A stretch of 64,000 bases of DNA from Pyramidobacter sp. YE332 (GTDB lineage Bacteria > Synergistota > Synergistia > Synergistales > Dethiosulfovibrionaceae), in contig NZ_CP133038.1 in assembly GCF_033060595.1 (NCBI RefSeq), positions 2,480,001-2,544,000 on the forward strand, given 5' to 3'. Numbering within the stretch: position 1 is the stretch's first letter; each line of letters opens with the position of its first letter. A program made the translations under genes and the position numbers. Shown here piece after piece: positions 49,623-63,509 of this stretch. A model generated the notes under the pieces. The model did no database searches. It had not been told where the DNA came from and saw nothing but the letters and a program-made list of their open reading frames with translations.

Positions 49623-52600
49623 ATGATCTCGAAGTTCTTCATCGATCGTCCGCGTTTCGCTGTCGTTCTTTCTCTTCTCATGTCCGTCGTCGGAGCGCTG
49701 GCGCTCTTTCTGCTTCCCGTCGCCCAGTACCCCGAGATCGCGCCGCCGACGATACGCGTCTCGACCGTTTATCCCGGCGCGTCGGCTCGGGTCGTGTCCG
49801 ACACGGTAGGAGCGCCGCTGGAAAAAGCCGTCAACGGCGTCGAAGGTATGATGTATCTGTCGTCGTCGGCTTCGGATTCCGGGGCGTACGTCATGAGCGT
49901 GACTTTCGAGCTCGGCACCGATCCGGATATGGCGCTGGTCCGGGTGCAGAATCGAATGCAGCTCGCCTTGCCTCAGTTGCCCGTCGAAGTGGTCGCCCGC
50001 GGACTCTCGGCGTTGCCGGTATTCATGTCGCCCATCGCTCAGCTGAGTTTAGTCTCTCCCGGGGGGACTCACGACCTGCTGGCGCTGAACGATTACATGA
50101 AAAACAACGTCAAAGACGCCATCGATCGCGTCGACGGCGTGGGAGACTCGTTCCTCATCGGTTCGGGGCGAAGTCTCAGAGTCTGGCTGAATCCGGAACG
50201 CATCGCCAACCTGGGACTTTCCGTCGACGACGTGGTAGCGGCGATACGGAGCCAGAACCGGCAGGCGGCTATCGGAGCCGTGGGGATGGCTCCGGGCAAC
50301 GAAGGGACTCCGATAGCTTATTCCCTCGAAACGAAAGGACGTCTGAACGACGCGGAGGATTTTAGAAACGTGATCGTGCGTACGGATTCCGACGGCAGTC
50401 GCGTCACTCTCGGTCAGATCGCCCGCATCGAGATTGGAGCCGAGAGTTACGGCTTCGAAGGGTTTGTCAACGGGGCTCCCTCGTCCAGCTTGAAGATCAG
50501 CCAGTCGCCGGGTTCCAACGCCTTGGAGGTCATGGCGGCGATCAGGACTCAGATAGCCCGTCTGGAACGGGATTTCCCGAACGACATGGAAATGGCGATC
50601 GTCTACGATGCGACGGCTTTCGTCAGAGCGTCTTTCGTGGAGATCCTCGCGACGCTGGGGCTCACCTGTCTGCTGGTTGTCGTCGTATGTTACCTGTTCC
50701 TGCAGAGCTGGAGAACGACTCTGGTGCCCGTGGCGGCCATCCCCGTATCCTTGCTGTTCGCGCTCGCCGGGCTGTCCGCCCTCGGGTACAGTCTCAATAT
50801 CCTGACGCTGTTCGGGTTCATCCTGGTGATCGGCACGGTGGTGGACGACGCCATTCTCGTGGTGGAGCGGGTGCAGTTCGTCATGGAACGGGACGGCGCC
50901 GATGCCCGCTCGGCAACGGTCCGCGCCATGAAGGATATCACGACGCCTATGGTCGCCACAACGATGGTGTTCCTGGCTATCTTCGTCCCCGTGGCTTTCA
51001 TGAAGGGGATGACCGGCATCATCTACCGGCAGTTCGCGGTCACCATCGCCCTCGCCGTTTTGTCTTCGCTGGTCGTCGCGCTGACGCTCAGCCCCGTGAT
51101 GTGCGCATCCCTGCTTTCCGCCGCCGCACCGACGGCGAAAGGCCCGCTCGCATGGTTCAACCGTCTGCTGGAACGAACCCGTTCAAGCTATGTGAGGGGA
51201 TCGGTATGGATCGCCCGCCGTTCCGCCGTAACGCTGCTGCTGTTCCTTCTGATCGGCTGCGCGGGATGGTTCATGCGGAGGAAGATCCCCACGTCGTTTC
51301 TGCCCGACGAGGATCAGGGCTGCGCTTTTCTCGTCGCTCAGCTGCCCGAAGGGGCTACCAGGAGCCGGACGGTCCCTTTGATCGAAAGGCTGTGCCGTAG
51401 GGTGGAAGACGTGCCGGGGATCGAGTGGGTCCTGGGTTTCCCGGGCAACAATTTCATCGGCGGATTCGGAGCGGACGAGAGCGTGGGCTCTGTCTGGGCG
51501 ACTCTCGAGGACTGGTCGGAACGCTACGCGCGCGAGGGGCAGGATCTGAACTCCGTCATGGCGAAACTGCGCGGCATCGCCGCTTCGGTTGCGGAAGCGC
51601 GGGTGATGGTGTTCACGTTGCCGCCCATCCTCGGCGTCAGTCTGAGCGGAGGACTTGACTTCCGTCTCCAGTCGCGCCGGGGATTCGATCCCGCCGAACT
51701 GTATCAGGTGCTCCTGGATTTTCAGGGACGTCTCGCCCGGTGTCCGGAAGTGCTGTTCAGTTACAGTCCTTACACCGCCAGCGTGCCTCATATGCGTCTC
51801 AACGTCGACCGCGCCAAAGCGGAAGACCTGAACGTACCGATCTCGTCGGTTTTTTCGACGCTCCAGTGCTATTTCGGCACTTACTACGTGAACGACGTCA
51901 ACCTTGGGAACCAGACCAACAAGGTCCTTCTGGGAGCGGACGCGCCGTTTCGGCAGAACGTCGACGGGATGGCGCGGATCCATGTCCGCGGCAGGACCGG
52001 ACGGCAGGTGCCCCTGAGCGCTTTGGCGGCGACGGAAAAAAGCTTGGGGCCGAGCGAAGTGGATCGCTACAACCTCTATCCCGCAGCCGCCGTTACCGTA
52101 AGACTCAAACCCGGCGTCAGCACCGGGCGGGGGATGGCTCTCCTTGAAGAACTGGCAAAAGAACTGCCCGAAGGCTATGGCTACGAATGGTCCGGCATGA
52201 GCTTTCAGGAAAAGCGCACCGGCGAATCCGGCGAACTGAGCCGCGTGCTGTTGCTGGCGCTGCTCTTCAGCTATCTTTTCCTGGTGGCTCAATACGAGAG
52301 TTGGACGCTGCCCCTGTCGGTGCTCCTGTCGCTGGTAACGGCTTTCGGCGGCGCTCTGGCTGGCGTGTGGATCATGAAGCTGTCGCTGAGCGTCTATGCC
52401 CAGCTGGGGATCCTTCTGCTCGTGGGACTGGCCTCGAAGAACGCCATCCTCATCGTCGAATTCGCCAAAGCGCTGCGGGAACGAAACGGACTGTCGATCC
52501 TCGACGCGGCCTCGCAGGCCGCCCATGAACGATATCGCGCCGTGCTGATGACGGGTCTGACCTGTGTCTTCGGCATCCTGCCCATGCTTTTTGCCGCAGG

Positions 52601-52763
52601 CGCGTCGTCGGCCAGCCGAAGGGCCGTCGGCAGCGTCATGGTGTTCGGGATGGCGATCGCTACGGTATTGGGCGTTTTCCTGATCCCCGGGCTGTTTGTC
52701 CTGTTCGAAAGACGTGCAAAAAGCGGCGGCGCTCCCGCCGTCACGCCGAAGAAGACGAGGTGA
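49623..52763 (+). CDS. RND efflux pump inner-membrane transporter (HAE1 family)
   Basis: Proton-driven drug efflux pump, 1046 residues with 12 membrane segments and two large periplasmic loops, the AcrB architecture. The N-terminal [20 protein letters not shown] is typical. The proton relay is intact: [11 protein letters not shown] in TM4 (the Asp-Asp pair) and the Lys in [15 protein letters not shown] of TM10. It starts 8 bp after the adaptor stop, in a usual adaptor-pump-channel operon. Likely substrates are lipophilic antimicrobials or bile salts, but this cannot be read from the sequence. Confidence 0.95.
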
Positions 52764-52773
52764 GACCGACGCG

Positions 52774-54258
52774 ATGAACGGGAAAAAATTTGCGCTTGCC
52801 GCGCTGGCGACAGCGGCGCTGACGGCACTGGTTTGTCCGCAGGGACGCGCCGCGCGGAGGACGGAAAAGGCAAATGAAGGCGACTGGCTGCGTCTGGCGG
52901 AACGATATCCTTTGACGGCTTCTTCGGCAAACGGAGAACGGCTCTCCGCATCGGTTCTGGCCAGATGGTGGGACGCGCTGGACGATGAGCTTCTGCCGGA
53001 ACTGATCGTTCGCGCCCTGAAACATAATAAAGATATGGACGCCGCGCTGGCGCGGGTATACGAAGCGCGGGCAGCGCTGGGCATTGCCGAGGCCAGTCTC
53101 TCGCCGACCGTCAGCTTGGGCGGGAAAACCCACAGAAGCCGGATTTCCGACAACACGGGAGGAACGGGAGAACGCAGCGGACACCGTTTGGGGTTCGACG
53201 CTTCATGGGAGATCGATCTGTTCGGCCGGCTGCGCCGGGGCGCTTCGGCGCGACGCGCCGACCTGGAAGCCGAGGTCGCCGGACTGCAGAACGTCTGGGT
53301 CTCGATCGCCGCCGAGGTGGCGCTGAACTATGCCGATTACCGTTCGCTCCAAGCCAGGATCGACATAATGGAACGGAATGTCCTGCGTCAGGAGGACATG
53401 CTTCGTCTCGTCGCCTCGCGCCGCGCAGCCGGCCTGAGCGACGGACTGGCGGAACAGCAGGCGCGGTACGGCCTGGAGTCGACCCGCGCCGGTATTCCGC
53501 CGCTGAGGTCTGCTCTGGAAGCGAAGAGCAACGCCCTCTCCATTTTGATCGGAGAGATCCCCGGTTCTCTGAACGACGCGCTGGCTTCCCCTGCTCCGGT
53601 CCCCCGACCGAAGGCCGCTCTTGTGACGGGAATCCCCGCCGAGACGCTGCGCCAACGCCCGGATATCCGCATAGCCGAACGTCGTCTGGCTGCGCAGGCG
53701 GCGCGGAAAAAAAAGGCCGCTGCCGAGCTTGCCCCTCAACTGCGCCTGTCGGGTTCCGTCGGTTTCGAATCACTGAATTCAGGAAACCTTTTCTCGCCCG
53801 GATCGCAGGGATTTTCGATCGGCCCCCTGATCTTCAGTTGGCCGCTCTTCAACGCGGGAGCCCTGCGCCGCAACGTTCGGGCCCAGGGTGCGCGTGAAAA
53901 GGCGCTGCTGGCCGCCTATGAAAAGACCGTGCTGAAGGCTGCCGCCGAAGTGCGCGACGCCCTTGCGGCCTACGGGCAGGAAAATTTGCGCCGGCAGTCC
54001 CTGGAAGCCGGGCGTTCAGCAGCCCGGCGCGCGCTTGAACTTGCCGAAGACCGCTATCGTCAAGGGCTGTCCGATTTCAGCGAAGTGCTGGGAGCACAGG
54101 GCGCGCTCCTGTCTCTGGAGGACGGACTGGCGGCAAACGCCGGCAACATGACCGGCGCTCTGATCAGACTTTACAAGGCCCTCGGAGGAGGCTGGGCGCC
54201 TTTGTCCCCGGAGGGAAGACTTCAGCCGATCTCCGACGCCGTCAAGCACGGACGGTAG
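52774..54258 (+). CDS. RND efflux outer-membrane channel (TolC/OprM-like)
   Basis: Outer-membrane factor of the same pump, 494 residues. A signal peptide (KKFALAALATAALTALV) is followed by CPQG; the residue before Cys is Val, so the lipobox is not canonical and lipidation is doubtful. Two OEP repeats contain the family motifs: WWDALDDELLPELIVRALKHN, an LGFDASWEIDLFGRLRRG segment, AETLRQRPDIRIAERRLAA, and ALELAEDRYRQGLSDFSEVLGAQ. It begins 10 bp after the pump gene, with GAGGTGAGA upstream. It completes the MarR-controlled operon. Confidence 0.92.
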   Translation: MNGKKFALAALATAALTALVCPQGRAARRTEKANEGDWLRLAERYPLTASSANGERLSASVLARWWDALDDELLPELIVRALKHNKDMDAALARVYEARAALGIAEASLSPTVSLGGKTHRSRISDNTGGTGERSGHRLGFDASWEIDLFGRLRRGASARRADLEAEVAGLQNVWVSIAAEVALNYADYRSLQARIDIMERNVLRQEDMLRLVASRRAAGLSDGLAEQQARYGLESTRAGIPPLRSALEAKSNALSILIGEIPGSLNDALASPAPVPRPKAALVTGIPAETLRQRPDIRIAERRLAAQAARKKKAAAELAPQLRLSGSVGFESLNSGNLFSPGSQGFSIGPLIFSWPLFNAGALRRNVRAQGAREKALLAAYEKTVLKAAAEVRDALAAYGQENLRRQSLEAGRSAARRALELAEDRYRQGLSDFSEVLGAQGALLSLEDGLAANAGNMTGALIRLYKALGGGWAPLSPEGRLQPISDAVKHGR

Positions 54259-54566: not shown

Positions 54567-55241
54567 CTACACAAGCTCGCGCAGGAACCGCGCGGCGATG
54601 GAACGGGCGAGGACCACGGGCTTGCCGGTGATTCGGCGAACCTGTTCCTTCATCGCCAGCGTGTAGCCCATGCAGTCCATGACGAGAGCGTCGGCGCCCC
54701 AACGGGCGAGTTCTTCCGCCGCGGCGGGGATCGTTTCTTCGGGACGGACGTAGGGCGATGCGCCAATGGAACGATTTTGCTCGGTGATCTGCGACCAGCG
54801 GCGCGACGACTGTTCCAGCTGATCCGGCGACGGCATGAAGACGCCGAGTTTCGCGCCGGCCGGCACGACGGCCTGAACCATGTTGAACAGGATTTTCTGC
54901 GGCCTCAGCAGCAGCCCGCCGGTTGGAAAGTCGGGGAACTCGCCCGTGCAGAGCAGCAGGACGGCGGGGATCCCCGCGGCGAGGTGGGCGGCGATCTTCT
55001 GACGCACCAGAGGTGTCACTGCACGTTCGCAGATTTTCACAGACGTGCCGTCGGCCATTCTCGTGACCAGCACATAATCGCCCGGGCGCGGCGCCATGGC
55101 GGCAATCTGTTCGGAACTCAGGCCGTCCAGCGCTCCCGCTTCGATCAGTTCCACTTCCGCCCCGAGGATCTTCATAAGGTCAGGCGTGACGTCTGTTCTT
55201 GGCGCCTGCCCAATGGTGACGGTCCCTACGCGCAAAGTCAT
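54567..55241 (-). CDS. AroM family protein
   Basis: 224-residue protein of the AroM family, whose biochemical role is not established. The sequence has the N-terminal GTVTIGQAPRTDVTPDL signature and two conserved cysteine motifs: LLLCTGEFPDFP (about 96-107) and ALVMDCMGYTLAMKE (about 184-198). These spacings resemble the paired catalytic cysteines of the Asp/Glu/hydantoin racemase superfamily. It is the last gene of the OPT-racemase-DUF917-DUF1177-AroM operon, with a 12-bp gap after DUF1177. It may be an isomerase of the same pathway (inference). Confidence 0.85.
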   Translation of the reverse strand: MTLRVGTVTIGQAPRTDVTPDLMKILGAEVELIEAGALDGLSSEQIAAMAPRPGDYVLVTRMADGTSVKICERAVTPLVRQKIAAHLAAGIPAVLLLCTGEFPDFPTGGLLLRPQKILFNMVQAVVPAGAKLGVFMPSPDQLEQSSRRWSQITEQNRSIGASPYVRPEETIPAAAEELARWGADALVMDCMGYTLAMKEQVRRITGKPVVLARSIAARFLRELV

Positions 55242-55252
55242 GGCCGGGCCTC

Positions 55253-56215
55253 TTACGCCTGAGGATCCGCCGGCGGCAGATCGCCCATGCTTTGAAGTTT
55301 GTTCATGGCCCCGTAACGTTTGAGGGTCAGATCGAATTCTTCCTCGCTGTAAAACTTGCACTTGCCCTCGCCGAACGCTTTCGCCGTTTCGATGGCGAAG
55401 CGCACGGCCGCCTCGATGTCTATCGGTTGCGAGCTTCCCGTAGCACAGCCGGGGACCGTCGTCTGCGACGTCAGCGCCACGCCGACGACCGGCGCTTTGG
55501 TGGCCGTGCAGGGCTGGAGGATGCTGTTCAGGTGATAGAGCCCGTTGCCGTAGGGCGTGATGTCGGTCATGCTGAGGGGAAAAACCTTGGGCAGCTCCCC
55601 CGTGACGGAGCTCATGATCTCGAGCAAATCTTCGCTGACGCGCAGGATCCAGCCCTCCTTGGCCGTCGGCGAGATGGCAAAGCCGCGGGCGTTGACGATC
55701 CGGTTGCCGCGCGTCGTGTCGATGGACAGGACGGCGTCCAGCTCCTCGCCCATTTCTTCGCGGTTGGCGATGGTCATGTTGATGGGAGAACCCATGAACG
55801 GCACGGGATCGTGAGGGCGTGTAGGAGAATTGGGGCAGATGTGAGTGGAGACGAACACGTCGCCTTTGAGCGCGTCGCCCTTTTTCGCCATGTCGCCCAG
55901 TTTCATGGCGACGGCCACGGCCGACACGGCGCCGTCGCCGTCGGAAACGAGCCCGATCCGTTCGGGGCGCGCGCCGATGCCGCCGAGACGGCCGACGATA
56001 CCGATGGTGGGGGCTGTGCCGCCGTTATGTTTGCCTTCGGAGCCGTAGAACCACGTTTTGACGAAATCAGTGCTGCCTTTGGGGCCGTGAACAGTTTTGA
56101 CGGAGATCTGTTCTTCCGGCACGCCGGCGGCCATCAGCGCTTGTTTGACGCTCTCGCCGCTTACGGACGGCGAGTCGAGCAGTTCAAGCGCGTTTATCGT
56201 ATAAAAAAGAGACAT
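55253..56215 (-). CDS. DUF1177 family protein
   Basis: 320 residues matching the DUF1177 family by its conserved stretches: LELLDSPSVSGESV near the start, GRLGGIGARPERIGLVSDGDGAV (about 76-98), VFVSTHICPNSPTRPHDPVPFM (about 120-141) and TSQTTVPGCATGSSQPIDIEAAV (about 249-271). A His/Asp/Glu-rich core suggests a metallopeptidase-like fold, but no activity is known to me. AAGGAGGT precedes the ATG. It is flanked by AroM and DUF917, a combination also seen in other anaerobes with hydantoin racemase and OPT genes. Confidence 0.85.
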   Translation of the reverse strand: MSLFYTINALELLDSPSVSGESVKQALMAAGVPEEQISVKTVHGPKGSTDFVKTWFYGSEGKHNGGTAPTIGIVGRLGGIGARPERIGLVSDGDGAVSAVAVAMKLGDMAKKGDALKGDVFVSTHICPNSPTRPHDPVPFMGSPINMTIANREEMGEELDAVLSIDTTRGNRIVNARGFAISPTAKEGWILRVSEDLLEIMSSVTGELPKVFPLSMTDITPYGNGLYHLNSILQPCTATKAPVVGVALTSQTTVPGCATGSSQPIDIEAAVRFAIETAKAFGEGKCKFYSEEEFDLTLKRYGAMNKLQSMGDLPPADPQA

Positions 56216-56282
56216 GATTGGTACCTCCTTGATTTTCTACGTCTATTTTTTCTCTTCGGTCATTGCGAACGCGGCGGCTGCG

Positions 56283-57362
56283 CTACTTCAGCGTGACGTA
56301 GGGCAGCACGTCCCTGCCGACGACCTTCTCGATAGGTTCCAAAAGTTCCCGGCAGAACATGCCTGCGCCAAGAGGGATCCTGTCCGCAGGGACCAGCGTC
56401 ACGAAAACGCGCCGCCCCTTTGCGAGCTCCGCCGTGGTGACGGGAAGTCCGGTTTCTGCGTCCGTGGTCATGATCAGATCGGGGAAGGTCCCCAGCCGTT
56501 CGCCGCCGCGGTCCAGCGTCATGAATTCGTTCCAGAACGCGAGTTCGCACCCGCCTGCGGAAACGACGCCATGGTCGAACCCGCCTTCGGTAATCAGGTC
56601 GATAGCGTCCACCGTGCCCGCCGTAACGACGCGGCCGCCGAGAAAGCCGACCGCCGCCTGGACAACAGCTTCGGCTCCGCGGGAACGGGCTTCAAGCATT
56701 TTCGTCCCAGTTTCGATGGCCAGCATCACGGCTCCCGGCGCGGCATGTTCTTTCAAATAATGGGCTTTGACCGGATTACGGGCCACCGCAACCAGTCCTC
56801 CGGCCTGAACGGCGCACTGCCGCACAAGCGCCGCTACGGCCTCCATGGGGCCGCTGAAAGCCGCTTCGAGGTAGCGCCCCGTCTCGGGATTTCCTCCCGC
56901 CGCCGTCTGCTTCGAAACGTAACGATTGTCGCGGTGCAGCGCCATGGATCCCATGACGCCGGTGGGATGCGCGCGTCCGTTGCACGGCGCGTCGATCAGG
57001 GGCAGTCCGCTCATGGCGGCCGGCAGCCAGCCGTTGAACGTCGAGCCGCCGCCATTTTCGTTGGTGATCAGTCCGGCCGGAGGCGACACGTCCAGTTTTG
57101 CCATCAATTCAATGACACGCATGGCCGCTTCGGGCTTGGCCATCGCTTCTTTCGAGGCCGGCGCCCCCACCGCCGAACAGGTGACGACGACCGCTTCGGG
57201 ATCGATCTCGTCCAGCGAGACCAGTTCCAACGGACCGGCGGAAAGAGCCGCTTCGCCGAGCGCGCGCCCCTTGGCCATCGAACCGCCGCCGCCACCGCCG
57301 AGAAAACAGCCGCCCAGCAGCGCGGCTTCCACGTGTTCCTGAGTCAGTTTCAGCCGAGACAT
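56283..57362 (-). CDS. DUF917 / S-methyl-thiohydantoin desulfurase-like protein
   Basis: 359 residues of the DUF917 family, related to hydantoinase-type HyuA proteins and now named after an S-methyl thiohydantoin desulfurase. The glycine-rich LLGGCFLGGGGGGSMAKG (about 15-32) and VTCSAVGAPASKEAM (about 60-74) are diagnostic; ITNENGGGSTFNGW and APCNGRAHPTGVMGSM follow. AAGGAGGT precedes the ATG. It lies 13 bp after a hydantoin/Asp-Glu racemase gene. Together these suggest processing of a cyclic amide such as a hydantoin; the real substrate is unknown. Confidence 0.87.
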   Translation of the reverse strand: MSRLKLTQEHVEAALLGGCFLGGGGGGSMAKGRALGEAALSAGPLELVSLDEIDPEAVVVTCSAVGAPASKEAMAKPEAAMRVIELMAKLDVSPPAGLITNENGGGSTFNGWLPAAMSGLPLIDAPCNGRAHPTGVMGSMALHRDNRYVSKQTAAGGNPETGRYLEAAFSGPMEAVAALVRQCAVQAGGLVAVARNPVKAHYLKEHAAPGAVMLAIETGTKMLEARSRGAEAVVQAAVGFLGGRVVTAGTVDAIDLITEGGFDHGVVSAGGCELAFWNEFMTLDRGGERLGTFPDLIMTTDAETGLPVTTAELAKGRRVFVTLVPADRIPLGAGMFCRELLEPIEKVVGRDVLPYVTLK

Positions 57363-57375
57363 GCAAAGACCTCCT

Positions 57376-58026
57376 TCAACACAAGGCCGTCCACAGGCAG
57401 GCAGCCGCGCAGCGCAACGGATCCAGCACCGGCAAGCCGACGCGGCGGCGCAGCTCCGGAGCGGCGTTGATCGTCGCCAACCCCGTGCAGGCCAGAAGGA
57501 GCAGCTTGGCGCCCTTGCTTTTCAGCGCACAGCCGGCTTCCGCGAGCGCGTCCATCGCGTCGGGGCGGAACAGATCCAGCGTCGTATGGATCTGCGGCGG
57601 GCGCAGAGAACCGACGATACGGCCGCCTAAAATTTTTGCGATCTCTTCCGGCACGTTGTCCGTGATCCCCAGCACTCCCACGGGAACCCCGTAGGCGCTG
57701 GCCACGTGCGCCATCGCCGTGCCGGCGCCGATGACCGGGACGTTGAGCTCCCGTTGAAGGATGCCGACGCCGGGATCGCCGGCGCAGCTGATATAGACGG
57801 CGTCGACGTTTTCGTCCGCGAAAGCGCGCCCCAGCGCCAGCACCTTGGGCAACGCCTTCGCATGACTTGCCTCGTCATGGATCCCTTCGTCCTGATCGGC
57901 GATGCACCGCGATTCGACGGACAGACCGGGAAAACACGATTCGATCATGCGTCCGTGAAGCTGGAGCAACTCCTGATCCGGCGTCGTCAGGACGCGGATC
58001 AGACCGATTTTTTTCTTCTCCGACAT
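57376..58026 (-). CDS. Asp/Glu/hydantoin racemase family protein
   Basis: 216-residue cofactor-independent racemase with the two catalytic cysteines in ISCAGDPG (about 79-86) and LLLACTGLATI (about 176-186). The strand GVPVGVLGITDN between them is typical. The start ATG at 58026 is favoured over the in-frame ATG at 58047, because the GAAAGGGTG ribosome site lies between them. It is the second gene of the operon, after the OPT transporter and before DUF917. Likely role: interconversion of stereoisomers of a hydantoin or acidic amino acid before the downstream enzymes. Confidence 0.87.
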   Translation of the reverse strand: MSEKKKIGLIRVLTTPDQELLQLHGRMIESCFPGLSVESRCIADQDEGIHDEASHAKALPKVLALGRAFADENVDAVYISCAGDPGVGILQRELNVPVIGAGTAMAHVASAYGVPVGVLGITDNVPEEIAKILGGRIVGSLRPPQIHTTLDLFRPDAMDALAEAGCALKSKGAKLLLLACTGLATINAAPELRRRVGLPVLDPLRCAAACLWTALC

Positions 58027-58105
58027 CGAATTTTCACACCCTTTCACGGCAGCGCCGTTTTTATGGAAGCACGGCGCTGCCGGTCACGTCGAAGATACAA
58101 TGCGC

Positions 58106-59737
58106 TTACCACCAACCGAAGGAACGCCCGATGGCGTTGAAGAAACCGAAAAGCCCGTCGCCGGCCACGAAACCCGCGCCGTAGAGCTGCATCGCCTCTT
58201 CGTGGTTTTTGATGAAGAGCGCCCGCAGGATCAGGGCGACCACCAGGCCGACGCCGTAAATGGGGTTGCGGATCAGCAGTCCCGTGGCGCAGAGAATGCC
58301 CAGCGCCTTTTTCGAACCGCCGGCGACCTGCAGAAGCGCGCCGGGGACGGCCCAGCACAGCATTTCAAGAAGGATCGCATAATCGGAACCCGCCTGGACC
58401 GTGGCCGCGAAAACCCGGCTGACGGGTGGAAGCAGATTGAGATTGAAATGCATCTTCATCAAAAGTCCGACCACCACAGCAGCGATCAGGCCGCCGAAGA
58501 GTTCGGAAAACATCTGCTGGCGACGTCCGTCCAGTTCGTACTCGCGATTCTTCCCGCTTCCTCTGATGACCCAGCCCGTCTTCAGATCGTATCCCATGTC
58601 GGCAAAACATGGGCCCGTGCTGGAAACGAAGCCTGCCAGCACCGCCAGCGCCGCCGGCGGAAAGTTCATGAACAGGCCGAGGCTGACGAAAATCACGGTC
58701 ACGGCAAAACCGGGGAACCAGCCCGAGAACATGGCGCACAGCCCGACCAGGATTGCGGCGGAGATCGACGAAAACGTGCACCAGACACCCCAGAGAATGA
58801 GCTTGGGTGTCTCCATGGAAGTCATGAACCCGGTAATGGCCGCCAAAATGACAGCCGCCACGGCGAAATATCCAATATGGGCGGCGATGGCTTTCTTAGC
58901 CGCCGCGTGAGTCACCGTGGGCGCGCTTTCGGACGAGAACTCGCGGACGGATTTTTTGAAGATCATGACGAGCGCCTGGATCAGCGAGATCAGCCCGGCG
59001 CCGATCATAAAACCGTGCGGGATGTACGTTTTTCCGAGATCTGCCGGGAGATTCGTCAGTCCAAGAGAACTGAGCCAAGGGACAAGGCTCGGATAATAGC
59101 CGCGGATCAAAAGCCCCGCGGCCAGAGCCGACATGGCCCATGGGTTGGCGATAAACGCGATGCCCACGCCGGCCATGGGAAGACCGCCGGAAAGAAAAGG
59201 CTTGATCCGGCATCCGGCGCCTGCCGCGCCTAAAACGATGCCGCTCAAAAGCGTACGTCCTTTTTTACCGCCTTCGTCTCCAGCGATCAGCGCTTCCGCG
59301 GTGGCGATCCCCGGCGCCCACGATTCCCGGGCGGGGAACATCTCGGAATCGAACAGCGAATAAACGAGATGCATGCCGATCAGCGTCGCCATACCGGATC
59401 CGATAAGCATCGGCACGATCAGGGAAGGATCGCCGAAAACGTAGAGGATCCCCACGGCAAGCAGGCAGCAATTGGCCGCGCCGAATCCGGCGGCCGAAGC
59501 CATCGTCTGCACCAGATTCTGTCGGTCCAGGCTGCGGAATCGGCTCAGACTGGCGAAGGGGATTCTGGCAAGCGCCATGGCGAACAGCGCGCCGATGACG
59601 GATGTGTTCGGCGTCGTTCCGATGCGGGAGATGATCTGCATACAGATGACCGCCGAAAAGACGGAAACCAGCGCGCTGATGACAAACGTTTGCCCTTCGA
59701 AAGCCTTGACGTGCGGAACTTTTTTCTCTTCTGACAT
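58106..59737 (-). CDS. OPT family oligopeptide transporter
   Basis: 543-residue inner-membrane transporter with about 14 hydrophobic segments; bacterial OPT members import oligopeptides or metal-chelate compounds. Family features include the N-terminal FEGQTFVISALVSVFSAVICM, the SGMATLIGMHLVYSLF region, SWAPGIATAEALIAGDEGGKKG and the NPWAMSALAAGLLIRGYYPSL segment. AGGAGGTCAGTCAC precedes the ATG. It is the first gene of the racemase-DUF917-DUF1177-AroM operon and presumably imports its substrate. An IS1202-type element begins 98 bp upstream. Confidence 0.9.
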   Translation of the reverse strand: MSEEKKVPHVKAFEGQTFVISALVSVFSAVICMQIISRIGTTPNTSVIGALFAMALARIPFASLSRFRSLDRQNLVQTMASAAGFGAANCCLLAVGILYVFGDPSLIVPMLIGSGMATLIGMHLVYSLFDSEMFPARESWAPGIATAEALIAGDEGGKKGRTLLSGIVLGAAGAGCRIKPFLSGGLPMAGVGIAFIANPWAMSALAAGLLIRGYYPSLVPWLSSLGLTNLPADLGKTYIPHGFMIGAGLISLIQALVMIFKKSVREFSSESAPTVTHAAAKKAIAAHIGYFAVAAVILAAITGFMTSMETPKLILWGVWCTFSSISAAILVGLCAMFSGWFPGFAVTVIFVSLGLFMNFPPAALAVLAGFVSSTGPCFADMGYDLKTGWVIRGSGKNREYELDGRRQQMFSELFGGLIAAVVVGLLMKMHFNLNLLPPVSRVFAATVQAGSDYAILLEMLCWAVPGALLQVAGGSKKALGILCATGLLIRNPIYGVGLVVALILRALFIKNHEEAMQLYGAGFVAGDGLFGFFNAIGRSFGWW

Positions 59738-59818
59738 GTGACTGACCTCCTGACCTTCGTCGAAAATGGTAAGACCTTCTCAAAAGAAATGCCTGTACAT
59801 AACCCTCCCGTCGATAAA

Positions 59819-59834
59819 GTTTTTAGAGATCTTA
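59819..59834. repeat. Left copy of the 16-bp target duplication
   Basis: GTTTTTAGAGATCTTA, repeated exactly at 61375-61390 on the other side of the IS. A 16-bp duplication is typical of the ISTde1-like group of IS1202-type elements. Confidence 0.9.
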
Positions 59835-61374
59835 TGTCAATAGCCAATAAAAAAGTCACCATAACTGCTCATTAAAAAAGTCACCCCCTCACACTCTCAT
59901 CACAGCAAGACACCTCGAAAGAACTCCCCATCGTGCCGCCATAACAACGTCTACGCGAACGTACATTTATCCCGACATGTGCTATGATATCCCTGCCTTT
60001 TGACGACGCCACGCCGCCATGGGTGGTCCGGAGCGGGCTTGTGCGCTTTCACAAGCCCGCTTTTCCGTTTCTTTGCCGATGCCTCATCGGAGTCGACTCG
60101 TTTTTGACTTTCAACCTCCTTCATCTCGATCCGTCTGCCCTTGGAAACACCCCAGATCCGCCCGGTCGACGTTTCACGCACCTCAACCGTCGTTTGGGCC
60201 ATCCCGAGGCAATCGTCCGCCGCCGGAACGTACCGACGACCTCCGTAGGAGATCATGCCGCCGTGATCCGTCCTGCGAGATTCGCGACGCGCAAAGAGAA
60301 AATCCAAATCGACTTTTCCTTCCGGCTTCACATAAACGTCCTCTCCCTCAGCCGGCGTGACGGCAAACTTCCGATTGTGCCTGGCGATGAGCTTGGGCAA
60401 AACCTCGTTGGCCGCCGTGATATCCGAGACGCCAAGCAGCCTCAGCTCCCCGGCAGCCTGTCCTGCATCGTGTTCCAAAGACGTTCGACACGCCCCTTCG
60501 CCTCCGGCGTCAAGGCAAAGATCTGCCCGATCCCAAGATCCTTCAGCCCCCGTCCGAAACAACTTAACGGCTCCTCCTTCCCCGCCTCATTCCCTTCATT
60601 TTCTTCATTCCCTTCGATCCGATCCTCATCATCCTGCGCCCGTGCCTTTGGAGAGCGGAAAATCGTATGCCGGTCGCTGTAAATCGCCATCGGCAGCCCA
60701 TACCCCTCGATCCCCATCCCCAGCGCGGCGACATAGCCCGCCATACATTCGTTCTCAGTGAAACAGGCGCCAGTCACGATCCCCGTCGCATCGTCAATAT
60801 AAGCGTGCAGCGTCGCGCGCCCGTTCCCCCTGCCAAACCATTCAAACGACGTGGCGTCAGTCTGCCACAACATCCCCGCGGCCACCTTCCGCGGTCGGGA
60901 ACGGTGAAGCTTCGGCCGCCGCCGCGCACTCTTCTTGCTCCTGATCCCCTCGTCCTTCAGAATGCGGACGACACTCGAACGGCTGATCCCGATCCCCTCC
61001 CGTTCGTTCAGGCATTCCGCAAAGTGAGAGAAGTTGAAATCGTAATAGACCTCCTCATACGCCTTCAGCACCGACTCCCGAACCTCATCTCCGATCCTGC
61101 GCCGAGACGTTCTGCCGCGGTTGCCATGAACAAGCCCTGCCGCCCCTTGAGCGGCGAACCTCTTCTTGATCCTGATGATTTGCCGTTGACAGAGCCCCAG
61201 CTTTTCCGCCGCCTCCCTGTTCGTCATGCGTCCCTCGACAAGCGCTCCGATAATCCTGATACGATCCAGTTCCTTTTGTGACAATGTCATTCGCTCCTGT
61301 TTCATGAACGGTATTATCTCAGAGTGACATTTTCTTGGAACAGTTATGGGTGACTTTATCACTGAACAACGACA
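59835..61374 (-). mobile_element. IS1202/ISNCY-type insertion sequence, complete
   Basis: A 1540-bp element bounded by 16-bp direct repeats. Its termini begin TGTC and share an imperfect inverted repeat of about 33 bp (common core AAAGTCACC and ATAACTG). A second AAAGTCACC-like copy lies about 25 bp inside each end, giving paired transposase-binding sites. It carries one transposase gene, frameshifted. The left terminus reads TTGACA outward, toward the OPT operon. Its insertion is recent, judging from the exact target duplication. Confidence 0.9.
59951..61290 (-). pseudogene. IS1202/ISNCY-type transposase with a -1 frameshift
   Basis: DDE transposase of about 445 residues when joined. The first frame (61290 to 60442, starting MTLSQKELDRIR) has two helix-turn-helix units (GRMTNREAAEKLGLCQRQIIRIKK; REGIGISRSSVVRILKDEGI) and the DDE core: LWQTDATSFEW, AIYSDRHTIFRS and GRVERLWNTMQDRL. 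It stops at LPGS. A -1 shift in GGGG at about 60449 continues as ELRLLGVSDITAANEVL to 59951, with a basic tail. This could be a mutation, a sequencing artefact or programmed frameshifting. Confidence 0.82.
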
Positions 61375-61390
61375 GTTTTTAGAGATCTTA
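61375..61390. repeat. Right copy of the 16-bp target duplication
   Basis: Identical to 59819-59834; see the IS element. The adjoining 61391-61480 is very AT-rich and probably once held the upstream part of the OPT-operon promoter. Confidence 0.9.
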
Positions 61391-61471
61391 TTGAATTTTA
61401 TCATGCTAAATAATATAATAAATATATTTTTGCATAAAAATACAGTATCAAATTATGCAGGCGCACAATTC

Positions 61472-61528: not shown

Positions 61529-62644
61529 TTACGATTCTCCGCCGGCGTCGTTTTTCGCGTACAGAAAAAACAGCGCCAGACGGAACGGCGTTGAGCCGTA
61601 TCGGTTCAGGGGGAGAAGTTCCATGATCCGCTTGTGGCGGTAAAGCAGGGTGTTGCGATGGATGTGCAGCCGTTGAGCGGCTTTTTCGGAGGAACCGTCG
61701 CAGGCGAACCAGACGCGAAGGGTCTGCGCGAGACTGGAATGCTTTTTCACGTCTTCGTCGAGGAGGGGACGCAGACAGCGCGAGGCGGCCTCCTGAAGCT
61801 CGGCCGGCGGCCGGTTCTTTTTGAGGAGATCCAGAAGTTCCAGCTCCGAGTAGACGAAGACGCCTTCGTCGAAGCCGAGCTGTGCGCCGAGCTGCAGGGC
61901 CGCTCTCGCTTCCGCGAAGCTCTGGACGATATTTTTCAGCGGCGCGGGGCCGGAGATGCCCAGGCTTTGGCGTTCCATCTGCTGCGGCAGGCAGCATTTC
62001 AGAAATTCGACGAAGTGATCCGCCCGCTCGCCGGGCAGCTGAGCGACGAGCATGCGCAGGGAGCTGTTGGCGCTGTACTGGAAAGCGCGCGGCGGCGGCA
62101 GGGAAGGCCGCTGCGGCGGCAGATTCTCCCATTGCAGGCTCCATACGCTCCGGGAGCTTTCCCAGCCCTGCCGTTTCAGCGACTCGAGCAGGCCGACGGG
62201 ATCCTGCTCCAGCTGAAAAAGGCTGAGAGGCTCGCCGGCGTCGTCGCGACAGCTCCGTTCAGTACGGAATATCTCGCGCATGACCGTGCGCGAGACAACG
62301 GCATAAGCCAGTCCTTTGGGCAGGATGACCAGGGGAAAGTCCAGCTCGTCGGCGAGGCTGAACGCCTGCGGCGGGATCGCGCTGATGAAACGTCCCAGCT
62401 TGACGCCCAGCCCGGCGGCTCTGCCTGCGCTCAAGACGCGGATGATGCGGCAGATCTGCTCGGGATTGTTGCGGAAGGCGTAACCGGTCGTGAAGGAGAA
62501 CGTGTCGGGGCGGCACCAGCCGGAAGGGTCGGGGATCTCGATGAAATCGATGAAGCGGACGCGGTTTCCCGTCCCTTTTTTGCCCGCAGCGATTTCATGG
62601 CCGGCGAAAACGGGCAGCTCGAGCATGTCGGCAACGGTAAACAT
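61529..62644 (-). CDS. PucR-type transcriptional regulator
   Basis: 371 residues. The N-terminal purine-catabolism-regulator-like domain starts FTVADMLELPVFAGHEIAAG and includes VRFIDFIEIPDPSGW; the C-terminal PucR helix-turn-helix is SSEKAAQRLHIHRNTLLYRHKRIMELL (about 320-346). The ATG at 62644 follows AGGATGG; another ATG three codons upstream abuts the preceding stop. It lies directly after a 284-residue unknown gene, with which it is co-transcribed, and is separated from the OPT operon only by the IS. It may control that operon (inference). Confidence 0.85.
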   Translation of the reverse strand: MFTVADMLELPVFAGHEIAAGKKGTGNRVRFIDFIEIPDPSGWCRPDTFSFTTGYAFRNNPEQICRIIRVLSAGRAAGLGVKLGRFISAIPPQAFSLADELDFPLVILPKGLAYAVVSRTVMREIFRTERSCRDDAGEPLSLFQLEQDPVGLLESLKRQGWESSRSVWSLQWENLPPQRPSLPPPRAFQYSANSSLRMLVAQLPGERADHFVEFLKCCLPQQMERQSLGISGPAPLKNIVQSFAEARAALQLGAQLGFDEGVFVYSELELLDLLKKNRPPAELQEAASRCLRPLLDEDVKKHSSLAQTLRVWFACDGSSEKAAQRLHIHRNTLLYRHKRIMELLPLNRYGSTPFRLALFFLYAKNDAGGES

Positions 62645-62654
62645 GACGGCCATC

Positions 62655-63509
62655 CTAGACCGGAAGTTCTCTGCGGCGGCTTCGGTACCAGCAGCCGCGG
62701 TGCTCCGCGCCGGTCGGGCCGCAAGCGGTGTCAAGACAGCTTTTCAGCGACTTTGCGTCGCCCGCGCTTTTTTGAAAAACCGTGCCGGACAACGCCAGAA
62801 TTTCGTTGAAGAACGCCTCGCCCTGAGGGCGTTCGTCAAAGCTCGCCAGCAGCGTGCAGCCGCCTTCCGCGCCCTGGATGCCGCCCCGCGCGACAATCTG
62901 CACTTCCGCGGCGCCGAGGATCTTGCAGGCTTCCGCTTCGTTGATTACGCGGCCGGGGATGGGAATCAGACCTGCCGCCATGCCCATGGACAGATCGGGG
63001 GCGAGACGCGACGCGGCGGCCACGGCGTCGTCCAGCGAACAGGGCGCGTATTTTTCGAGTCCGGCCGCAACGATCATCTCCACGCCTTCGGCGGGAAGGC
63101 TCGTAAAAAAGTGCAGCGCTCCGCCGAAAGGGCTTCCGGCCAGCATCGCCGCGCGTCCGTGACGATCCACGAGGTTGGCGCCGATCACGCAGGCGTCGCC
63201 CGGCGAAAATCTCAATTTTCCGGAGGACCAAAGCTCGGCGTCCAGCGGCGCAGGAACGCCCCGATGCAGCAGAAGGCTGTGAGGGGCCGCGCAGTTTCCG
63301 GCGCAGGAACCGGCGCCGCGGCGGTCGATGCGCCCGCAGATCTTCAGCGGAACGCCGCAGACCGCTTCGGAAATCAGCGAAACGGTCGTGCCGCCCTTAA
63401 GGAGCAGCCGCCCCTCCGCCAGCGCCCTCCGAACGGCGGGCAGCGTCGATATCGCTTTGGCGATCAAACGCTTGCCCGCTTCGACAGTCAATGAAATCTG
63501 CACTTTCAC
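62655..63509 (-). CDS. Conserved-looking protein of unknown function (284 aa)
   Basis: I do not recognise this family. The start is GTG at 63509 after GGAGGGGATCAC. The N-terminal 40 residues form a helix (VEAGKRLIAKAISTLPAVRRALAEG) followed by LLLKGGTTVSLISE, which resembles a glycine-loop ligand site. The middle has CVIGANLVDRHGRAAMLAGSPFGG and AAGLIPIPGRVINEAEACKILGA. The tail is rich in Cys (SCLDTACGPTGAEHRGCWY). No signal peptide or membrane segments. It is the first gene of a two-gene unit with the PucR-type regulator, so it is probably a metabolic enzyme or sensor linked to the same pathway. Confidence 0.65.
   Translation of the reverse strand: MKVQISLTVEAGKRLIAKAISTLPAVRRALAEGRLLLKGGTTVSLISEAVCGVPLKICGRIDRRGAGSCAGNCAAPHSLLLHRGVPAPLDAELWSSGKLRFSPGDACVIGANLVDRHGRAAMLAGSPFGGALHFFTSLPAEGVEMIVAAGLEKYAPCSLDDAVAAASRLAPDLSMGMAAGLIPIPGRVINEAEACKILGAAEVQIVARGGIQGAEGGCTLLASFDERPQGEAFFNEILALSGTVFQKSAGDAKSLKSCLDTACGPTGAEHRGCWYRSRRRELPV

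Follow-up and report, generated by a model that had tools for sequence, protein, structure and literature searches.

What does a bacterial operon do when it joins an importer of the peptide type to four enzymes, three of which come from families with little or no biochemistry? Five minus-strand genes at positions 54567-59737 of a 64,000-nucleotide stretch of the Pyramidobacter sp. YE332 genome (contig NZ_CP133038.1, positions 2,480,001 to 2,544,000 of the forward strand; hereafter, the window) raise this question. They encode an OPT family transporter, an Asp/Glu/hydantoin racemase family protein, a DUF917 protein, a DUF1177 protein and an AroM family protein, and a previous examination of the DNA letters and open reading frames, termed here the sequence-only reading, had taken them for an operon of a candidate undescribed catabolic pathway acting on a hydantoin or a cyclic or modified dipeptide. 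Our analysis reveals that the operon is real, widely conserved and partly anticipated in the literature. We give an even chance to the view that this conserved operon serves to take up and salvage a ring-containing peptide derivative of the hydantoin/imidazolone or cyclic-dipeptide type.

Gene content of the operon

All five genes were found where the sequence-only reading had placed them, and all five exceed the Pfam cut-offs of their families. In transcription order they encode the OPT family transporter (58106-59737, 543 residues), which matches PF03169 with 57 bits against a cut-off of 25.8 over residues 18-536, near full length; the racemase family protein (57376-58026, 216 residues; PF01177, 77.6 bits, cut-off 31); the DUF917 or S-Me-THD-like protein (56283-57362, 359 residues), which matches PF06032, the S-Me-THD N domain formerly named DUF917, with 77 bits and PF20906, the S-Me-THD C domain, with 87 bits (cut-off 27); the DUF1177 protein (55253-56215, 320 residues; PF06675, 431.9 bits, cut-off 25); and the AroM family protein (54567-55241, 224 residues; PF07302, 260.3 bits, cut-off 23.8, and NF007788, 220.1 bits, cut-off 198). 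The intergenic gaps from OPT to AroM are 79, 13, 67 and 11 bp. Three of these agree with the figures given earlier, while the gap between DUF1177 and AroM had been put at 12 bp. The good ribosome sites described for the operon are, by reading of the sequence, strong before DUF1177, DUF917 and OPT and weak-looking before AroM and the racemase gene.

The operon unit is larger than these five genes. Upstream and on the same strand lie the genes for a PucR-type transcriptional regulator (61529-62653; PF07905, 104 bits, and PF13556), whose ATG start at 62653 is inferred, the listed open reading frame starting at 62734, and for a 284-residue protein of a family, designated C11, that has no Pfam or NCBIfam entry (62655-63509, with a GTG start after ggagggg). 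Both belong to the unit, as does, in other genomes, a gene for an M29-like enzyme; neither the regulator nor C11 had been counted as a part in the sequence-only reading. PucR proteins are a catabolic regulator class, and OPT and Dpp transporters are importer types; the PucR protein encoded here probably controls the operon.

Conservation of the gene set

A scan of a genome collection with a DUF1177 alignment yielded at least 591 relatives among 599 stretches. The best 80 of these, together with 15 regions from related genomes and the window, gave 96 loci, of which 94 were counted, L061 and L106 having been dropped because they contained no scored DUF1177 gene. Neighbourhoods were built from greedy open reading frame calls and label-propagation clusters, and a partner was counted when it lay within 5 kb of DUF1177 on the same strand. 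One representative each identifies the M29, NCS1, CN_hydrolase, HyuA, two M20 and two of the three PucR clusters, the identity of the cyclodipeptide oxidase cluster rests on three proteins, and names were given by reading of the sequences alone to IclR, the Dpp genes and the remaining PucR cluster. Many contigs in the survey are short, and the Fisher p-values ignore shared ancestry. Locus counts are slightly inflated because L027 and L033 are apparently one contig (their lengths are equal and their ranges overlap) and a single genome contributed both L023 and L031.

AroM accompanies DUF1177 in 71 of the 94 loci, DUF917 in 49, and the racemase and OPT in 43 each, with all five genes present together in 28. 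These 28 loci span Synergistota, Bacillota (Anaerococcus, Paenibacillus, Blautia and Virgibacillus) and the archaeon Thermococcus (L073), and the seven nearest named loci are from Synergistaceae or Synergistales. Further recurrent partners are the M29-like enzyme (44 loci), PucR (32), C11 (15) and DppB (9); rarer ones are an NCS1-type permease and a CN_hydrolase (8 each), two M20 clusters (8 and 3), HyuA (3) and a cyclodipeptide oxidase (2). When counting was restricted to the 58 loci flanked by at least 5 kb in both directions, AroM was found in 47, DUF917 in 36, OPT in 34, the M29-like enzyme in 33 and the racemase in 32.

As an internal control, genes on either strand were counted in the inner 4.5 kb around DUF1177 and in the 4.5 kb beyond it, for the 51 loci that extend 9 kb or more in both directions. 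The partners were concentrated in the inner shell: AroM was found in 42 loci there versus 0 in the outer shell, DUF917 in 31 versus 2, OPT in 30 versus 1, the racemase in 29 versus 3, the M29-like enzyme in 31 versus 1, C11 in 8 versus 1 and PucR in 23 versus 5. This contrast rules out chance gene order and, with the 28 complete loci, demonstrates that the genes form a conserved unit. The sequence-only reading had proposed such a neighbourhood search and named a lack of conserved association as one refuting outcome, which did not occur.

DUF1177 and AroM are particularly closely tied. The window's genome contains one match to each, and among 101 genomes (this one and 100 relatives) DUF1177 is present in 15, AroM in 15 and both in 13, each family being alone in two. 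In all 13 genomes with both, the two genes lie no more than 0.9 kb apart on one contig. Operon settings of this kind hold the two families in taxa as different as Synergistota, Bacillota, Bathyarchaeota and Thermococcus.

A different arrangement was seen in the Bathyarchaeota loci L051, L062 and L087, where DUF1177 is followed by UspA-like and M24-like genes (named by reading) and the four partners are not in the same run; this neighbourhood is a possible second context of DUF1177.

Importers and variant loci

A peptide-type importer, as assumed by the sequence-only reading, is usual in these loci, being either OPT or, in 9 of the 51 loci lacking OPT, DppB. No OPT locus contains DppB (0 of 43 versus 9 of 51; p = 0.003). 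Because no locus holds both, OPT and Dpp look interchangeable, as if one peptide-type importer replaced the other. DUF917 is present in 37 of the 43 OPT loci versus 12 of the 51 others, and the NCS1-type permease goes with the CN_hydrolase (6 of 8 loci versus 2 of 86; p = 9e-7). The representative of the M29-like neighbour (L080) has NicX, the 2,5-dihydroxypyridine 5,6-dioxygenase of the M29 family, as its closest PDB chain by sequence (7cn3, E = 1.8e-7), a likeness that concerns only this neighbour gene in other genomes.

The importers and the M29-like gene are also what would be expected of a unit for the salvage of linear peptides that contain D-amino, D-Asp or isoAsp residues and stem, for instance, from cell walls or aged proteins. 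OPT would then import the peptides, the racemases would correct their stereochemistry, and DUF1177 and the M29 enzyme would act as peptidases. OPT or Dpp occurs in 52 of the 94 loci, and the M29-like gene is present in 35 of those 52 versus 9 of the 42 others; some loci also contain M20 genes, and the DUF1177 model described below resembles aminopeptidases. Linear-peptide salvage leaves unexplained, however, the DUF917 of OPT loci, which is near the thiohydantoin desulfurases, as well as the NCS1-type permease with CN_hydrolase, the HyuA and the cyclodipeptide oxidase of variant loci. Mainly because of the DUF917 subgroup, the NCS1/CN_hydrolase variants and the oxidase, we favour a ring compound as the substrate and hold the salvage of linear peptides to be unlikely.

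One variant locus holds several DUF917 frames. In Alicyclobacillus (L066:3880-9938), an NCS1-type permease gene is followed by one DUF917 gene, HyuA, three more DUF917 open reading frames and then DUF1177. Two of the three later DUF917 frames are short and overlapping, and possibly represent a broken gene or an assembly error.

DUF917 and thiohydantoin chemistry

The tie of DUF917 to hydantoin-type chemistry drawn in the sequence-only reading is supported by family models. The window DUF917 matches the thiohydantoin desulfurase model NF058529 with 275.6 bits and the S-methyl thiohydantoin desulfurase model NF058532 with 267.6 bits, near full length (residues 5-355 of 359). However, neither equivalog cut-off (440 and 450, respectively) is reached, and the gene partners differ. 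By its sequence, the protein is thus near, but outside, the thiohydantoin desulfurases.

The survey contains DUF917 proteins of two types. The 36 full-length proteins that are near OPT and not beside HyuA score at least 238 bits to that of the window (itself included), versus 57-98 bits for the six full-length proteins beside HyuA. Ten full-length proteins are beside neither, eight of them scoring 251-319 bits and two 49; L105 carries one DUF917 of each type. The desulfurase models separate the proteins in the same way, giving 244-313 bits for six OPT-locus DUF917 (that of Thermococcus among them) and 46-115 bits for three that adjoin HyuA and one that adjoins a CN_hydrolase (L048). None of these ten reaches 440 or 450.

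Scores of 244-313 bits with the two models could also point to a branch in the breakdown of ergothioneine or of another thiohydantoin, in which DUF917 would remove sulfur and the remaining proteins would process the hydantoin. Yet the window protein and all ten others scanned fall short of the cut-offs by 127 bits or more, and no ergothionase- or urocanase-like family is among the identified recurrent neighbour clusters, although neither was searched for directly. We consider such a branch improbable, and an orthodox thiohydantoin desulfurase was rejected as the main assignment because DUF917 scores well under the equivalog cut-offs.

AroM is related to the two-cysteine racemases

Two-base racemases have two conserved cysteines. 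In the racemase set, both occur without exception among the aligned members (47 of 47 and 48 of 48), the window protein included, and every AroM sequence with a residue at the position has them as well (70 of 70 and 71 of 71). Comparison of the two sets by hhalign gave a probability of 96.7% (E = 3.7e-10) with both cysteines aligned, indicating at the level of family profiles that AroM is a relative of the two-cysteine racemases. The earlier suggestion of two related isomerases, which was drawn from the similar cysteine motifs of AroM and the racemase, was therefore right in family terms.

The closest solved chain to the window racemase, which retains both cysteines, is 2eq5 (E = 2e-55), one of a group of hydantoin/allantoin racemases that also includes 5lfd and 3qvj. 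2eq5 is itself named a "hypothetical hydantoin racemase", however, and the similarity to the allantoin racemase 5lfd is weak (1e-6). Arylmalonate decarboxylase (NF052327) was rejected for this gene, the score being 24.2 bits against a cut-off of 225 and the two cysteines being kept. A PDB sequence search with AroM returned nothing credible; in the sections covered here of a 2024 paper, AroM is described as experimentally uncharacterized (PMC11055893).

Predicted folds of DUF1177 and C11

The sequence-only reading had also proposed a structure prediction for DUF1177. An AlphaFold2 model built from seven sequences (predicted local distance difference test score (pLDDT) 75, predicted template modelling score 0.82) resembles hydrolases of the M20/M28/M17 type, which we take as its predicted fold. 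Foldseek placed M17, DapE and M28 peptidases at the top (best E = 1e-7; 1e-7 to 1e-6 among the 50 matches listed), and VIA-align found M28B-/M20-type structures with Z scores of 15.1-16.0 and root mean square deviations (rmsds) of 3.5-4.4 over 225-265 residues, the listed matches being mostly M17 for Foldseek and M28B/M20 for VIA-align, so that further families may match as well. The top VIA-align match was transferrin receptor 1, which has an M28B-type fold (Z 16.0, rmsd 3.9, 254 residues aligned). The predicted fold would thus be shared with DapE, the Aeromonas aminopeptidase and 5-nitroanthranilate aminohydrolase. A PDB sequence search with DUF1177 gave nothing credible.

In an alignment of 92 DUF1177 sequences, mostly near relatives of the query, no variation was seen at R76, R83, D92, D94, C127, H135, D166, D218 and H228, and 90 of the sequences have H125. 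MH-type metallohydrolases have five metal ligands, His-Asp-Glu-Asp-His. Judged by their positions, D92 and D166 may correspond to the bridging and the second aspartate of the hydrolase fold; the conserved set does not evidently read as the His-Asp-Glu-Asp-His of the M20/M28/M17 metallohydrolases.

The C11 protein of the window has no Pfam match at E ≤ 10 and no NCBIfam match at E ≤ 1, and a PDB sequence search with it returned nothing credible. Its model (pLDDT 74.9) possibly has a NagB/RpiA/IF2B-type fold. The best Foldseek match is RpiA with an E value of 1.7e-4, but a template modelling score (TM-score) of 0.27 and an rmsd of 16.5, and aspartate aminotransferases are listed as well. VIA-align gave Z scores of 7.6-9.9 in the 50 matches listed, nearly all to eIF2B, RpiA or related isomerases, the best being eIF2B (Z 9.9, rmsd 3.8, 148 residues aligned).

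Cyclodipeptide oxidase and previous descriptions

A link to cyclic dipeptides, as put forward in the sequence-only reading, is provided by two Blautia operons (L058 and L109), which end with a cyclodipeptide oxidase directly after the racemase. The oxidase small subunit, DUF6092 (PF19585), is fused to a nitroreductase domain in L058 and encoded by a separate gene after a nitroreductase gene in L109. When sought in 59 genomes with DUF1177, it was found in five; in the other three of these, the oxidase was not found beside the operon (in two, the contigs are too short to be the same one). The genes could instead form a cluster for the biosynthesis or tailoring of modified cyclic dipeptides, OPT serving in export or self-uptake. 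Such a cluster would accommodate the oxidase of L058 and L109, but it is very improbable, as the small subunit was not found in the window's genome and 53 others of the 59 tested, OPT and Dpp are types of importer, and regulators of the PucR class are catabolic.

Part of this gene association has been reported. Clusters that contain a cyclodipeptide oxidase and lack the synthase are enriched in hydantoin racemase (PF01177), DUF917 (PF06032), AroM (PF07302) and OPT, and roles in purine metabolism or in the biosynthesis of peptide-based metabolites were proposed for them (PMC11055893), the latter being one reading in favour of the biosynthetic cluster considered above. Peptidases are nearby in those clusters, and oxidases were noted in Blautia, Clostridium and Thermococcus. 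The sections of that paper covered here describe clusters with the oxidase and name neither DUF1177, the M29-like enzyme nor C11, whereas our survey is anchored on DUF1177 and the small subunit was not matched in the window's genome. Because that paper already reports part of the association, the description of the pathway as undescribed needs qualifying: the racemase, DUF917, AroM and OPT have been reported together with oxidases, and DUF1177, the M29-like enzyme and C11 were not found as parts of the association in the literature searched (few subscription journals among it). The same search returned only an unrelated mention of DUF1177. Apart from PMC11055893, the papers with DUF917 name it, in the sections covered, in strain, mutation or transcript lists with no function, and in the literature searched PMC11055893 alone combined two or more of AroM, OPT, hydantoin racemase, DUF917, DUF1177 and cyclodipeptide oxidase.

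A putative salvage pathway for ring compounds

For the salvage of a ring-containing peptide derivative, we infer the following reactions, order and substrate. OPT, or elsewhere Dpp or a cytosine-type permease, would bring in the ring compound. The PF01177 racemase and AroM, as related two-cysteine proteins, would determine the stereochemistry of the acidic ring carbon or carbons, and DUF917 would attack ring carbon C2 hydrolytically, a reaction on thiohydantoins for which its nearest characterized relatives are named. DUF1177 may then open the ring or cut the freed amide or carbamoyl bond, and in other genomes the M29-like (or CN_hydrolase-type) enzyme would complete the final cleavage. The carriers range from gut bacteria to Thermococcus and many are peptide users, which suggests a substrate that commonly arises as peptides age, such as a hydantoin, a hydroimidazolone or a cyclic dipeptide.

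Several findings weigh against this pathway. A family search of the window's genome found no counterpart of the M29-like gene that is common elsewhere, and a PF19585 search found no oxidase small subunit; moreover, the oxidase is rare (5 of 59 genomes) and inside the operon in only 2. Of the 58 loci that extend 5 kb or more in both directions, five hold none of OPT, racemase, DUF917 and AroM, and conservation was measured only near the query because the named loci are the best 80 of at least 591 matches. The DUF917 protein is far under both desulfurase cut-offs. As for DUF1177, the Foldseek TM-scores by query length are 0.43-0.51 in the 50 matches listed, and loops of the model, residues 79-91, 135-141 and 253-260 among them, have low confidence. 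Its usual metal-ligand set is not fully evident, with no obvious candidates beyond D92 and D166, and its profile showed no sequence link to the M42, M20 or M29 profiles (probability ≤ 1%; M28 and M17 were outside this comparison).

A more specific form of the proposal is a widespread, hitherto unassigned pathway of bacteria and archaea for heterocycles of damaged peptides (hydantoin-capped peptides or glycation hydroimidazolones, for instance), in which DUF917 would displace the C2 substituent, the racemases would tune the ring carbon, DUF1177 would represent a new active site on a known fold and C11 a new enzyme family. This form is speculative, and we rate it as doubtful. The operon puts two or three uncharacterized enzyme families into one pathway, and DUF1177, AroM, the M29-like enzyme and C11 each gain a testable role from the shared import-and-breakdown unit, which points to a peptide-derived ring compound common to very different microbes.

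An insertion element in front of OPT

In this genome, the regulator side of the operon (PucR and C11) is parted from OPT by a minus-strand insertion sequence at 59836-61373, which contains a match to ISNCY-type transposases and is flanked by an 18-bp target duplication (59818-59835 and 61374-61391). The ISNCY family model NF033594 matches the open reading frame listed at 60442-61404, whose listed start falls just outside the element, with 294 bits over profile positions 2-251 of 368. Because the match ends early and is followed by an overlapping open reading frame in another frame (59951-60562), the transposase gene is probably frameshifted. Neither of the congeners L025 and L026 carries an insertion at this place, and L025 shows an uninterrupted run of C11, PucR, OPT, racemase, DUF917, DUF1177 and AroM. 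The region before OPT has therefore been altered in this strain, probably recently.

At the other end of the operon, and converging on it from the plus strand (49623-54258), are the genes for an RND-type (resistance-nodulation-division) efflux pump and then a TolC-type outer-membrane factor, as read from their translations.

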